From Nocardioides deserti (GTDB lineage Bacteria > Actinomycetota > Actinomycetes > Propionibacteriales > Nocardioidaceae), in contig NZ_JACMYC010000007.1 in assembly GCF_014266025.1 (NCBI RefSeq), positions 62,001 through 126,000 on the forward strand: a DNA stretch of 64,000 bases. Reading direction: 5' to 3'. The notes under the pieces are model-generated. The model had not been told where the DNA came from, ran no database searches, and was given only the letters and a program-made list of their open reading frames with translations. This document shows positions 12,350-64,000 of the stretch, in pieces (position 1 is the first letter of the stretch; every line of letters starts with the position of its first letter). The position numbers and the translations under genes are program-made.

Positions 12350-13048
12350 TCAGACCCCGGCGGCGGCGATCGCGTCCGCGACGGCGTCGCCGAAGGCCCG
12401 GTGGCCCTCGAGGGTGAGGTGCAGCCGGTCGTCGAGGTAGGGCAGGTCCAGCCCGCTGGTGGGGACGTACGTCGCCGCGTGCCGCTCCGCGAGCCGGGCC
12501 AGCAGCCGGTCGATGCGGGCGACCCCGTCCCCGCGCGCGGGCGCGCTCGCCGGTCCGACCACGACGACGGCCGCGTCGCCGACCCGGCGCTCGAGGCCGG
12601 CCACCAGGCGCTCGAACCCGGCCCGCACGGCGGCGTCGCTCTGGTCGACGTCGTTCAACCCGCCCTCGACGACCACGAGGTCGGCGCCGCCGAGGACCGC
12701 ATCGGCGGCGCGGGCGGCGAAGGAGACCTCGGGCCCGCAGCCGCTCGCGCCGGCGCTGAAGCCCGACCCGGAGAAGCCCGCCACGCGCACCCGGCCCGCG
12801 AGCCGCGACGGCCACGACGTACCCACCTCGTCCAGACCGAGCCCGGCCGCCCACGAGTCGCCGATGACCACGACGTCGCGGCCCTCGCCGGTGACGATCC
12901 CCGCCCGCTCGGCCGAGCTCGCGGCGAACCGCTCGCAGCGGGTGCTGCCGGTGCCGCGCGCCCGGTCGGCCAGCTGGACGACGAGGACGCCGACGACCAC
13001 CAGCACGACCACGGCGAGGAGCACCGAACGGCGACGGGCGAGGAGCAC
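12350..13048 (-). CDS. Membrane-anchored SGNH/GDSL hydrolase
   Basis: A 232-residue protein with an N-terminal transmembrane anchor (about residues 7-27, LLAVVVLVVVGVLVVQLA). The extracytoplasmic SGNH domain has block I VVVIGDSWAAG (Ser near 65), block III EGGLNDVDQ (Asn) and block V DDRLHLT (Asp 207, His 210). Such enzymes are esterases, often acting on cell-wall or glycan acyl groups. It is cytoplasm-in, domain-out. It stands alone between a palindromic repeat and a small peptide gene; the substrate is unknown. Confidence 0.8.
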   Translation of the reverse strand: MLLARRRSVLLAVVVLVVVGVLVVQLADRARGTGSTRCERFAASSAERAGIVTGEGRDVVVIGDSWAAGLGLDEVGTSWPSRLAGRVRVAGFSGSGFSAGASGCGPEVSFAARAADAVLGGADLVVVEGGLNDVDQSDAAVRAGFERLVAGLERRVGDAAVVVVGPASAPARGDGVARIDRLLARLAERHAATYVPTSGLDLPYLDDRLHLTLEGHRAFGDAVADAIAAAGV

Positions 13049-58756: not shown

Positions 58757-58794
58757 GTTCGGGCGCCCCGCAGAGGGACACAGAGCGCCCGAAC
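58757..58794. repeat. Inverted repeat next to the element boundary
   Basis: GTTCGGGCGC pairs with GCGCCCGAAC around an 18-base loop. It lies directly beside the tRNA terminator, on the chromosome side. Confidence 0.6.
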
Positions 58795-58830: not shown

Positions 58831-58836
58831 GGGTGG

Positions 58837-58883
<47 letters not shown>

Positions 58884-58962
58884 TGAAATCGGGCCCCTCG
58901 TGGCTCCCGCCGCTGACCGCGTACTCAGCGAAACTCCAGGTCAAGCACGAGATTGGCATCTT

Positions 58963-59180: not shown

Positions 59181-59378
59181 ATGAAGACCCACACGGTCGA
59201 TGACCCCGTGCTTACCCGGCACGAGGCAGCCGCCTACTGCGGCGTTCACGTCGCGACGGTGGATCGCGCCAGGAAGGCCGGCGAGCTCCGAGCCATCGTC
59301 AAGGACCGACTCATCCGACATCGCCGTAGCCACCTTGACGCTTGGCTCGGCAGTCACGAGGTCGGAGGCGATGAGTGA
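59181..59378 (+). CDS. Excisionase-like helix-turn-helix protein
   Basis: A 65-residue MerR/excisionase-type HTH_17 protein: LTRHEAAAYCGVHVATVDRARKAGELRAIVKDRLIRHRRSHLDAWL. The helix-turn-helix (about residues 10-30) and the wing with R-x-S-x-L-D-x-W are standard. It is the first gene after the attachment site, where Xis is expected. GAGAGAGGAA precedes the ATG. It could also regulate the element. Confidence 0.85.
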   Translation: MKTHTVDDPVLTRHEAAAYCGVHVATVDRARKAGELRAIVKDRLIRHRRSHLDAWLGSHEVGGDE

Positions 59379-61498: not shown

Positions 61499-63511
61499 AT
61501 GGCAAAGACAAACAACCCGGAAGTCGGGTTGAAGAAAGCCCTGCAATACGCGGAGCGTGGCTGGCATGTCTTCCCAATGCACTTCAACAAGCAGGCCGGC
61601 GACGTTGTGAAGATGCCGCTGACGAAGTGGGCGAAAGGTGACGACAGTCAGCGCGCGACCACGGACCCAGCCGTCATCCGTCGGTGGTGGAGACGCTGGC
61701 CTCACGCGGGCGTCGGCATCGCCTGCGGGCCGAGTGAGTTGCTGGTCATCGACGTGGACGGCGACTACGGCGCTGCTTCCCTGGCCCGCCTTGAGGAGAC
61801 TCTCGGGCCTCTGCCGACTACGCGCACGGTGCTCACGAGTCGCGGTCGACACCTGTACTTCAAGACGTCCGAGGACCTGCCGACTTCGGCTGGGTCACTC
61901 GGCGAAGGCGTCGACACCCGGGGCGTCGGAGGCTATGTCGTTGCTCCGCCTTCCTTGAACCAGTACACCGGCGTCAAGTACCGCTGGGCGGACAAGAACG
62001 CAGGGTTGGCCCCACTGCCCGACCCGTGGGCTTCTGCGCTCCTAGCGGCCAAGGGGCGCGGCGCTGGCACGGGGCTAGGGTCGGTCACCCGGCGCATCAG
62101 CACTACGCCCGGCGCCTACGCCCTCGCGGTTCTCGAGGACGAGCTAGACAACGTCCGTCAGGCGCATCCCGGCGAGCGGAACGACGCTCTCAACTCGGCG
62201 GCGTACTACCTCGGCCGATTCGTCGGAGGCGGCTACCTCACGGTCGATGAGGTCACGGACGCACTCGTGCGCGTTGCCGAGATGAAGGGTCTTGCGGCGG
62301 GCGAGGCCGGAGCGACTGTCGCCAGCGGGCTGGATGCGGGCAGCCAAGAGGCTCTCATCCTCCTGCAGGAGTCGAGCGCCACCGCTATGGAACGAGACAT
62401 CGAGGACGCGGTCCGCAAATTGCGCATCCGAGACGCGGCCGCGCGTGCCTTCCAGGCTGAGAAGATCGCTGAGAGGCACGCCCGTTCCCGCAACGCCCGC
62501 AAGATGAGCGGTAGCGAGTTCTTCCTGGACCTCCCAGCCGAGACGCCGACGCTGTGGGGCGACGGCAAGCGCATCCTCTGGATTGACGGCGAGCCGCTGT
62601 TGATCTGCGGTGACGACGGCACCGGCAAGTCCACGATCGACCATCAGTTAATGGCCGCCCGCCTCGGCTTCCGAGACGAGCTGCTGGGCTACTCGGTCAC
62701 GCCCGCCGAAGGCATCGTGCTCTACCTCGCGATGGACCGCCCCGAGCAGGCTCGTCGTGCAGGCAACCGGCTCTATCCGGACTCGGTTGATATCGACTTC
62801 CGCAGCAACCTCGCGGCAAACCTCGCGGTCTGGCGTGGCCCCTTGCCCGTTGACGTGCTGGCTGGGCCGGAGGTGCTGGCCGACTGGATTCACTCCGAGT
62901 TCGGCCCGGTCGCGGAGGTTCACGCGGACAGCCTCAAGGACGTCGCGTCGAAGCTCAGCGACGACGCCGTTGGTAGCGGCATCAACAGCGCCATTCAGGA
63001 GGTCGTGAGTCGAGGCATTAACTGGGTTGGCCTCCACCACCAGCGGAAGGCGAGCGGCGAGAACCGCAGGCCGGACTCCCTCAGCGACGTCTACGGCAGC
63101 CGTTGGCTCACGGCGGGCCAAGGGAGCGTGCTGATGCTCGTCAAGGCCGGCGAGTTCGACAAGGACCAGGTCGAGATGCGGCAGCTCAAGGAGCCGTCAG
63201 ACCGGGTGCCCGCCTTGCTGCTGGAACACGACCGCAGCCGTGGCCGCACTCGGGTCGTAGAGGCCAGTCAGGACCCTGAGCAGATTCTCCGAGCAGCGGG
63301 AGAGGCAGGCGCGACCGCGCTCGACGTCGCAGCCGCGATGTACGCGAAGGACAAGAGCGAGGTCACGGGTGCTGAGAAGAAGAAGGCTGACCGGCTGCTG
63401 GCTCGGCTGGTCAAGAGTGAGGAGGCAGTCAAGCGCGCGGGTCGGAAGGGCGGCGAGGGCGGCACAGAGCCCACCCGATTCTTCCCGGTCGAGGACGAGG
63501 GCGCGCCGTGA
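61499..63511 (+). CDS. Bifunctional primase-polymerase / helicase-type replication protein
   Basis: A 670-residue protein. The N-terminal archaeo-eukaryotic primase (PrimPol) domain, about residues 8-180, has WHVFPMH, D85-V-D87 in VIDVDGDYG, RGRHLYFKT (His118) and GVDTRGVGGYVVAPPS. The C-terminal RepA-like RecA ATPase has Walker A GDDGTGKST at 371-379, the Walker-B-like AEVHADSLKD and WVGLHHQRK. It should prime and unwind element DNA. AAGGAAG precedes the ATG. Its GTG overlap with the next gene suggests coupling. A/T-rich leader and hairpins lie upstream, iterons downstream. Confidence 0.88.
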   Translation: MAKTNNPEVGLKKALQYAERGWHVFPMHFNKQAGDVVKMPLTKWAKGDDSQRATTDPAVIRRWWRRWPHAGVGIACGPSELLVIDVDGDYGAASLARLEETLGPLPTTRTVLTSRGRHLYFKTSEDLPTSAGSLGEGVDTRGVGGYVVAPPSLNQYTGVKYRWADKNAGLAPLPDPWASALLAAKGRGAGTGLGSVTRRISTTPGAYALAVLEDELDNVRQAHPGERNDALNSAAYYLGRFVGGGYLTVDEVTDALVRVAEMKGLAAGEAGATVASGLDAGSQEALILLQESSATAMERDIEDAVRKLRIRDAAARAFQAEKIAERHARSRNARKMSGSEFFLDLPAETPTLWGDGKRILWIDGEPLLICGDDGTGKSTIDHQLMAARLGFRDELLGYSVTPAEGIVLYLAMDRPEQARRAGNRLYPDSVDIDFRSNLAANLAVWRGPLPVDVLAGPEVLADWIHSEFGPVAEVHADSLKDVASKLSDDAVGSGINSAIQEVVSRGINWVGLHHQRKASGENRRPDSLSDVYGSRWLTAGQGSVLMLVKAGEFDKDQVEMRQLKEPSDRVPALLLEHDRSRGRTRVVEASQDPEQILRAAGEAGATALDVAAAMYAKDKSEVTGAEKKKADRLLARLVKSEEAVKRAGRKGGEGGTEPTRFFPVEDEGAP

Positions 63512-63729
63512 ATAGCAACAGACAGGGCAACAGACACGCGTCCTTTGGCCGGGGCAACAGACAAGCACCGGACAGCAACGGACACATTCAGCGTTTCCCC
63601 AGGCCAGGGCAACAGACAGGGCAACAGACACGGTGTCCGGTGCCAAGCAACGGACAAACCTGCGCCCCCCTAATGGGGCGCGGTGTCCGTTGGTGCCGGG
63701 TGGGCGACCGACAGAAAGGAATGTCATGA
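63508..63729 (+). CDS. Possible 73-residue Gln/Asn/Gly/Arg-rich protein encoded through the iteron array
   Basis: The frame starts at GTG 63508 inside the replication-gene stop and ends exactly over the next start (ATGA at 63726). The translation MNSNRQGNRHASFGRGNRQA... repeats GNRQ- and NGQ-type units because the DNA is repetitive. Coupling at both ends argues for translation; composition argues for a noncoding origin that happens to be open. Both could be true. Confidence 0.4.
   Translation: MNSNRQGNRHASFGRGNRQAPDSNGHIQRFPRPGQQTGQQTRCPVPSNGQTCAPLMGRGVRWCRVGDRQKGMS
63515..63692. repeat. Iteron-like array with terminal hairpin (candidate replication origin)
   Basis: GCAACAGACA occurs at 63515, 63527, 63554, 63609 and 63621; GCAACGGACA at 63575 and 63647; and the variant GCACCGGACA at 63565. 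The array ends in a dyad in which CAACGGACA (63648) pairs with TGTCCGTTG (63684) around an inner stem GCGCCCC/GGGGCGC. Direct repeats plus a hairpin directly after a replication gene is the classic layout of an iteron origin. Confidence 0.6.
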
Positions 63730-63977
63730 AGGAAGACAAGGTGCTGGCGTGGCTGCGCCGTCACGACTCGACGCCGCTGTTGTTCAGCGACGTCAGCCGA
63801 GCACTCATCACGAACAACAAGAAGCAGCGGGCGAGGTCGCATGAGGCGAGGAGCGAGCTGCGCTCCATCTTGGCCGACCTGGAGATGGACGGCGTCGTGT
63901 CGCTGACCGAGAGGGAAGGCCGGGAAGGGCGCGGTCTCTCTATCGCCATGCTCGGCAGGGATGGTGGCGCGCCGTGA
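63726..63977 (+). CDS. Small winged-helix-like element protein, 83 residues
   Basis: MKEDKVLAWLRRHDSTPLLF... with SHEARSELRSILADLEMDGVVSLTEREGREGRGLSIAML reads as helices followed by a beta-hairpin wing. AAAGGAATGTC precedes the ATG. It overlaps the next start (GTGA). A regulatory role is plausible but unproven. Confidence 0.6.
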   Translation: MKEDKVLAWLRRHDSTPLLFSDVSRALITNNKKQRARSHEARSELRSILADLEMDGVVSLTEREGREGRGLSIAMLGRDGGAP

Positions 63978-64000
63978 CCGAGAAGCGAGTCCGCAACCCC
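63974..64000 (+). CDS. Start of a further element gene, cut by the window end
   Basis: A GTG at 63974 overlaps the preceding stop and opens VTEKRVRNP before the window ends. A basic N-terminus in this position would suit an integrase, but nine residues cannot show it. Confidence 0.4.

Follow-up and report, generated by a model that had tools for sequence, protein, structure and literature searches.

The repeat array directly behind the primase-helicase gene, together with the hairpin that follows it (63515-63693), is in all likelihood the replication origin of a 13.3-kb element integrated at a tRNA gene of Nocardioides deserti, and it would be read by the adjacent helicase's own winged helix. 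The window, that is, the whole stretch of 64,000 nucleotides analysed here, corresponds to bases 62001-126000 of a 219-kb contig from a draft genome of 4.2 Mb. Computation yielded the array, the order of its parts, their recurrence in relatives, the tie to the helicase, the joint variation of recognition helix and repeat unit, the prediction of a winged helix and a motor fold of the DnaB/RepA type.

The array contains seven exact copies of GCAACRGACA, all on the + strand (starting at 63515, 63527, 63554, 63575, 63609, 63621 and 63647), and one + strand variant, GCACCGGACA, at 63565. All of them lie within 142 bases (63515-63656), as a preliminary description of this DNA had stated. Inverted copies with one mismatch are found at 63634 and 63684. 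The same description placed several repeats 12 bases, or about two helical turns, apart; the start-to-start gaps among the seven exact iterons are 12, 27, 21, 34, 12 and 26, which bears out the 12 bases for two gaps and the helical phasing only roughly. Outside 63515-63656, not a single exact copy was found in the 98 kb of contig scanned. With up to one mismatch on the + strand, eight copies fall within one 200-bp stretch at the array, against a maximum of three in 200 dinucleotide shuffles and of four in 317 other 200-bp windows from positions 1-63400, a clustering of direct repeats next to a putative initiator gene that goes beyond chance. The parts of the candidate origin are as follows.

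63515..63524, + strand: iteron 1, GCAACAGACA, exact repeat
63527..63536, + strand: iteron 2, GCAACAGACA, exact repeat
63554..63563, + strand: iteron 3, GCAACAGACA, exact repeat
63565..63574, + strand: degenerate iteron, GCACCGGACA, variant of the repeat
63575..63584, + strand: iteron 4, GCAACGGACA, exact repeat
63597..63606, + strand: conserved box, here CCCCAGGCCA (CCGCAGGTCA in the family), two mismatches to the family box
63609..63618, + strand: iteron 5, GCAACAGACA, exact repeat
63621..63630, + strand: iteron 6, GCAACAGACA, exact repeat
63634..63643, - strand: inverted degenerate iteron, one mismatch
63647..63656, + strand: iteron 7, GCAACGGACA, exact repeat and outer left arm of the dyad
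63662..63681, no strand: GC-rich hairpin with a 7-bp stem and the loop CCTAAT, from folding, with counterparts in relatives
63684..63693, - strand: inverted iteron, one mismatch, outer right arm of the dyad

A terminal dyad with the inverted repeat as its outer arms had also been proposed, and we recovered it: the arms at 63647-63656 and 63684-63693 pair at nine of ten bases around the inner stem at 63662-63681 (7 bp, loop CCTAAT), and folding of the dyad as DNA gave a z of -4.95, with none of 200 shuffles equally stable. The GC content of the array is 61-67%, and no AT-rich opening region is present. Neither a DnaA-box-like match with up to one mismatch within the array nor any Rfam family at 63400-64000 was found.

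The gene in front of the array encodes a protein with a PrimPol domain (aa 14-175), a helicase of modelled DnaB/RepA fold (about aa 345-590) and, at its C-terminal end, a predicted winged helix (about aa 593-663).

61499..63511, + strand: primase-helicase gene, encoding the putative initiator (PF09250, E 2.2e-44; phrog_6012 DNA helicase, E 3.3e-75)
63368..63415, + strand: part of the gene coding for aa 624-639, the predicted recognition helix (from the model; co-variation peak at aa 618-639)

The model of the full protein (pLDDT 75, pTM 0.50) shows the helicase core and the C-terminal winged helix, the latter with helices at 593-603, 607-614 and 624-639 plus a wing, 624-639 being the third helix. 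Modelled alone with 42 relatives, the C-terminal domain reached a pLDDT of 83 and a pTM of 0.72. Structure searches with the winged helix returned generic winged-helix matches (best Z 8.9); the DNA-binding domains of P4, SaPI and SCCmec are absent among the matches listed, which excludes nothing. For aa 330-620, structure comparison gave matches to DnaB (7t22, Z 21.6, 223 residues, rmsd 3.0), T7 gp4 (5ikn, Z 20.8, 226 residues, rmsd 3.0) and RSF1010 RepA (1olo, Z 20.6, 233 residues, rmsd 3.5; 1g8y, Z 20.4), and therefore the motor looks like a DnaB/RepA-type ring by its modelled fold. This match to DnaB/RepA (SF4) is strong, and no SF3 chain is found among the matches listed for the helicase, an absence that alone excludes nothing. 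The P4 helicase belongs to SF3, unlike the DnaB/RepA fold of the window helicase. Searches by sequence for relatives of solved structure gave marginal matches only.

Distant relatives of the PrimPol half of the protein are numerous in phages, plasmids and genomes, and the helicase half is rarer; gp43 of BFK20 is presumably a similar PrimPol-helicase. Exact peptide patterns of the window protein retrieved no close relatives from the genome or viral contig sets, and the helicase half had no match in PLSDB plasmids at E <= 1e-5. A search with an alignment of helicase halves yielded 61 loci in named genomes, 45 in viral contigs and five in further genomes of the order. With our own locus and earlier hits included, the helicase loci number 120, or 107 distinct ones once those with identical last 150 residues are merged, and 104 of these were used for the array count, L125, L131 and L176 having been dropped for too little DNA 3' of the gene. 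Copies of one 10-mer were counted in a 400-bp window at the stop codon, the other windows of the same loci serving as controls.

At least five copies follow the helicase stop in 60 of the 104 loci (our own included), compared with 79 of 3865 other windows, and at least seven copies in 31 of the 104, compared with 6 of 3865. Among the loci hit solely by the PrimPol part of the protein (PrimPol-only loci, 52 tried), an array was present in 1 of 49, the control windows giving 10 of 271; none of the 52 has a helicase match within the 3.3-4.0 kb examined per locus. Because of this difference between the two sets, we conclude that the array accompanies the helicase and not the primase. Fewer than five copies were counted in 44 of the 104 helicase loci, including mycobacteriophages of the Gaia and Redno2 types, and the Gaia helicase retains its C-terminal domain despite its low count; some of the losses in low-count loci may be broken genes or diverged repeats. 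PF03354 was uninformative as a phage marker (4 of 37 records matched, one of them over the cut-off). In three loci from viral contigs (L137, L138 and L151), a 10-mer recurs up to 16, 12 and 11 times, respectively, within other 400-bp windows.

The closest relative, from Paractinoplanes ovalisporus (L071), shares 58% identity over the helicase half. The simple count gives four copies in this locus, a number equalled by 4 of its 49 control windows, and refinement gives six. Its gene order is that of the window: primase-helicase, array, hairpin, small ORF, HGG protein, serine recombinase and tyrosine integrase. As its primase, L071 has a Toprim enzyme (PF13155, E 8.9e-7), the kind also found in P4, whereas that of the window is a PrimPol. 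Since L071 keeps the motor, the array and the hairpin with a Toprim primase, the primase is, judging from the sequences compared, an exchangeable part (PrimPol or Toprim) of a set in which the other three persist. The following genes and boundaries accompany the array in our element.

58834..58886, no strand: 53-nt left attachment repeat, corresponding to the 3' half of tRNA-Ala(CGC)
59181..59378, + strand: small helix-turn-helix (excisionase-like) gene (PF12728, E 1.1e-8; phrog_66 excisionase/regulator, E 1.1e-8)
63726..63977, + strand: small ORF of 83 aa, 3' of the candidate origin, with no Pfam match
63974..64000, + strand: start of the gene for a HGGxSTG-like protein of 170 aa (end at window-equivalent 64486; NF041373), with a relative in L071
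Window-equivalent 72141-72193 (L002:14141-14193), beyond the window, no strand: right attachment repeat, partner of the left 53-nt copy

A clustered-repeat search in related elements had been proposed as a check on the conservation of the array, and what it revealed is that position and much of the spacing recur while the unit differs. In the 72 loci with at least four seed copies and at least three refined copies, the unit varies from GCAACRGACA in the window to AGCAATCACG, CCACCCACGC, CCCCTTCACG, GAAAGTCACG, CGAGAATCA, GACCTGTACG and AAACCGGACA in others, and the recurring order is repeat, box (of the CCGCAGGTCA type), repeat, hairpin. A core with a spacing of about 0, 12 or 21, and 38 bp is present in 51 of the 72 loci; shuffling the order of gaps within loci gave a mean of 29.3 (sd 3.5, maximum 40 in 500 shuffles) and random placement a mean of 24.9 (sd 4.3, maximum 38 in 200). 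In the window the core consists of the iterons at 63609, 63621 and 63647, that is, 0, 12 and 38. The exact box CCGCAGGTCA occurs in 25 of 72 loci and in 1 of 2522 control windows; with up to one mismatch the figures are 35 of 72 versus 66 of 2561, and with up to two, 50 of 72 loci versus 601 of 2559 windows. A box with up to two mismatches stops short of an iteron by fewer than 12 bp in 44 loci, and the iteron that follows the box is frequently the first one of the core; the window box, CCCCAGGCCA, with two changes relative to CCGCAGGTCA, ends 2 bp before iteron 5. Box and core spacing were first spotted by eye and then counted, and for this reason their counts describe more than they test. 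In L096, L098, L134, L175 and L073 there are two boxes (up to two mismatches), each beside an iteron of its own, suggesting a duplicated box-iteron module.

In 35 of 51 loci, the final iteron of the core is immediately followed by a stem of at least 7 bp, compared with 42 of 2305 random anchors, and by a looser rule a GC-rich hairpin is present in 67 of the 72. Hairpins behind genes are common. According to the part of PMC4234260 cited, pRN1 has a dispensable terminator hairpin beside its essential stem-loop. The hairpin could then be only the transcription terminator of the primase-helicase gene, with no role in replication. We consider this unlikely, given that a T-tract (at least five T in 9 nt) follows none of the 67 hairpins and that TA occupies the centre in 64 of them, compared with 80 of the 712 stems taken from other places in 40 loci of the set. 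Moreover, the hairpin has a fixed place behind the last iteron and is then followed by an inverted copy of the locus' own unit in 25 of 58 cases (61 of 1160 tests with foreign units), and no terminator-like site was found at 63300-64000.

The repeat unit changes in step with one part of the adjacent protein. Among 61 loci with at least five refined copies, unit similarity was correlated with C-terminal identity when the helicase core was held fixed (Mantel test, partial rho 0.32, 0 of 1000 permutations), whereas the correlation with the helicase core, the C-terminus being fixed, was small (partial rho 0.066, 123 of 1000 permutations). A scan of the protein in 54 windows of 16 residues (45 representatives, 990 pairs) placed the best windows at aa 618-633 (partial 0.33) and 624-639 (0.26), while the best non-overlapping window reached 0.146. 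Helices of the form E[KR][AT]RR are paired with units containing CACG (26/0 and 2/19 in 47 representatives, p = 3e-11); our element has the helix KKADR and the unit GACA. The E[KR][AT]RR pattern was chosen by eye before counting, and the Mantel test and the protein scan are independent of the choices of box, spacing and pattern made by eye. A quick tree built on the helicase core shows eight changes of helix type and seven of unit type; fully supported branches hold four independent switches, of which 3.8 on average are in step and none opposite (p = 0.125, underpowered).

We read this co-variation at aa 618-639 as direct recognition by the helicase tail; on such sequence comparisons, the iterons are very probably recognised by the helicase's own C-terminal winged helix. 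The architecture of an iteron-controlled origin, which had been proposed for this DNA, gains support from the recurrence of the place of the array, the box and the hairpin in relatives, and from a unit that changes with the recognition helix of the neighbouring protein.

Another protein of the element, such as the 83-aa or the helix-turn-helix product, might instead read the iterons, much as RSF1010 employs a separate iteron binder in the account cited (PMC4234260). The peak of unit similarity at the helicase's own predicted recognition helix makes this very unlikely. In addition, the 83-aa ORF, the helix-turn-helix gene and three left-hand ORFs had no tblastn match (E <= 1e-4) in the 119 other loci, many of which have little flank and in which short, fast-changing proteins are easily missed. 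We also regard as highly improbable that the array is an operator for the genes from 63726 on, bound by the helicase or by a small regulator, with replication starting elsewhere. The array does lie between two same-strand genes, the element does carry a helix-turn-helix gene, and the iterons of known replicons often regulate copy number too; however, the array is tied to the helicase and absent as a trend in PrimPol-only loci, its unit co-varies with the helicase C-terminal helix, and a scan limited to promoters of the sigma-70-like type found none at 63300-64000.

If the array is an origin read by the helicase, PrimPol-helicase molecules would bind the GCAACRGACA iterons via their C-terminal winged helix and assemble a DnaB/RepA-type ring on the array. 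The duplex would open by the conserved box and the hairpin, the primase domain would begin a strand at or near the exposed hairpin, and a host polymerase would copy the excised circle. All of these steps are inferred: that the protein binds, that a ring is loaded, that the DNA opens and a strand is primed at the hairpin, and that the element is excised and copied autonomously. How a DnaB-family ring is loaded onto closed duplex DNA is a long-standing question, and the known solutions involve loaders or, in RSF1010, a separate iteron binder. With a winged helix of the helicase itself reading the iterons, no separate loader or iteron binder would be needed; no candidate for a RepC-like separate binder was found in the element, in which the winged helix is fused to the helicase.

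We lean, if only slightly, towards a broader reading, in which the family represents widespread actinobacterial self-loading initiators of DnaB/RepA fold with a swappable primase. In all members, the box would then serve for melting or for a host factor and the hairpin for priming, and recognition helix and unit would follow a readable code, exemplified by E[KR][AT]RR with CACG. If true, a single protein would carry out origin reading, unwinding and priming at a short DNA target just behind its own gene, and dozens of natural helix/iteron pairs would allow a direct test of recognition. Array, CCGCAGGTCA box and TA-loop hairpin would also provide a sequence signature for origins in actinobacterial prophages and satellites, and arrays of the primase-helicase type might furnish new vector origins.

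Iteron origins behind self-loading primase-helicases are already known. The domain plan of primase, ATPase and winged helix is already published, as the section cited shows (PMC5862659). P4 alpha combines its primase and helicase with a winged helix for the repeats of its origin in one polypeptide, as described in part of PMC4234260, and the same plan is predicted for the window protein. RSF1010 resembles our element in its RepA helicase fold, its iterons with short hairpins (ssi stem-loops) and its dedicated primase. In the same section (PMC4234260), RSF1010 initiates via RepC, RepA and RepB' at iterons and ssi stem-loops, with helicase (RepA), primase (RepB') and iteron binder (RepC) as separate proteins, in contrast with the window, where one protein comprises primase, motor and probable iteron reader. 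SaPI Rep and SCCmec Cch2, in the portion of PMC7581432 cited, have a helicase C-terminal domain that reads repeats directly downstream of the gene, as is probable for the window, and SCCmec also has inverted repeats near its origin and in-vitro priming that maps to the iteron region. These helicases nevertheless differ in belonging to the DUF927 and Primase_Cterm-D5 families and to another host phylum, Cch2 moving 3'-to-5', and the SCCmec iterons, three in number and short (AAGTG), are unlike those of the window (same portion of PMC7581432). By these analogies, the window family combines the motor of RSF1010, the single polypeptide of P4 and the gene-origin order of SaPI.

ORF904 of the archaeal plasmid pRN1 is likewise a single protein in which a PrimPol and a helicase are joined to a winged helix at the C-terminus, and its origin lies downstream of its own gene and contains a stem-loop; yet, as far as the section cited describes it, the helicase is SF3 and the stem-loop of about 100 nt comes without iterons (PMC4234260). 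PrimQH proteins have a primase, a P-loop ATPase (some of RepA or DnaB type) and, at the C-terminus, a winged helix that was suggested to take part in recognising the origin, no DNA site being described in the section cited (PMC5862659). The window primase is likened to PrimQH by domain plan; its own assignment is PF09250. AICEs, in the part of PMC3218068 cited, also possess an integrase, a Prim-Pol replication protein and an actinobacterial host, but they carry an FtsK/SpoIIIE transfer protein, whereas none is found among the 16 element proteins scanned. In the full-text literature searched, which excluded subscription journals and preprints, we found no description of an array behind a DnaB/RepA-fold helicase with the box, the TA-loop hairpin and the helix-repeat pairing. 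Candidate satellites with helicases have been described in mycobacteria, in a main text that, in the part cited, contains neither "iteron" nor "origin of replication" (PMC10654092).

The host element, 13.3 kb long, is flanked by 53-nt direct repeats that match the 3' half of tRNA-Ala, are 96% identical (51/53) and lie 13307 bp apart, the right copy belonging, as its 3' half, to an intact tRNA-Ala(CGC) gene. Between them are found the helix-turn-helix gene, the PrimPol-helicase gene, the array, the 83-aa ORF and the genes for the HGGxSTG-like protein, a serine recombinase and a tyrosine integrase; the combination of tyrosine integrase gene and tRNA attachment repeats is as in PICI. Excision is plausible because of the direct repeat at tRNA-Ala and the integrase gene. 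The right flank has a match in 59 of 59 genus genomes tried (our own included). In the six genus genomes from which about 3 kb each were fetched, tRNA-Ala and the right flank are conserved but the left flank does not adjoin within about 3 kb, and therefore no clean empty site was found among them.

Repeat arrays also mark sites of the cos, oriT and parS types, and the element encodes the HGGxSTG-like protein, to which no role is assigned (NF041373, E 1.9e-6, 27.5 bits, just below the 29-bit cut-off) and which, next to PHROG matches of no assigned function, was all that turned up with regard to PICI-type packaging genes (TerS or capsid redirecting). A role of the array in packaging, transfer or partition is, all the same, extremely unlikely: its place right behind an initiator helicase fits known origins, and the Pfam scan of 16 element proteins, with a few small ORFs outside it, revealed no FtsK/SpoIIIE, relaxase, ParA/ParB or virion protein, although one protein weakly matched a ParB-like family in PHROG (E 0.042). 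The same Pfam scan of these 16 proteins, again with a few small ORFs outside it, gave no match to a Rep_3 initiator (PF01051).

Some further observations concern the element and its surroundings. The serine recombinase gene (L002:6870-8902) directly precedes the tyrosine integrase gene, a pair also present in L071. The right part of the element contains an IS4/5-type transposase gene (PF13340) at L002:11717-12562 (window-equivalent 69717-70562), in a wider stretch that is bordered by an inverted 19-nt pair seen by eye (L002:10981-10999 and 12577-12595), and a predicted tRNA-Val(AAC) gene at L002:12686-12758. A 27-nt inverted repeat, 81% complementary, has one arm just outside the left attachment repeat (58763-58789) and the other behind the HGG gene (window-equivalent 64552-64578). 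Finally, a genome of the same genus (G039) holds five PrimPol matches with identical scores, four on C3 (6037, 37978, 51462 and 66567) and one on C1 (5842927).
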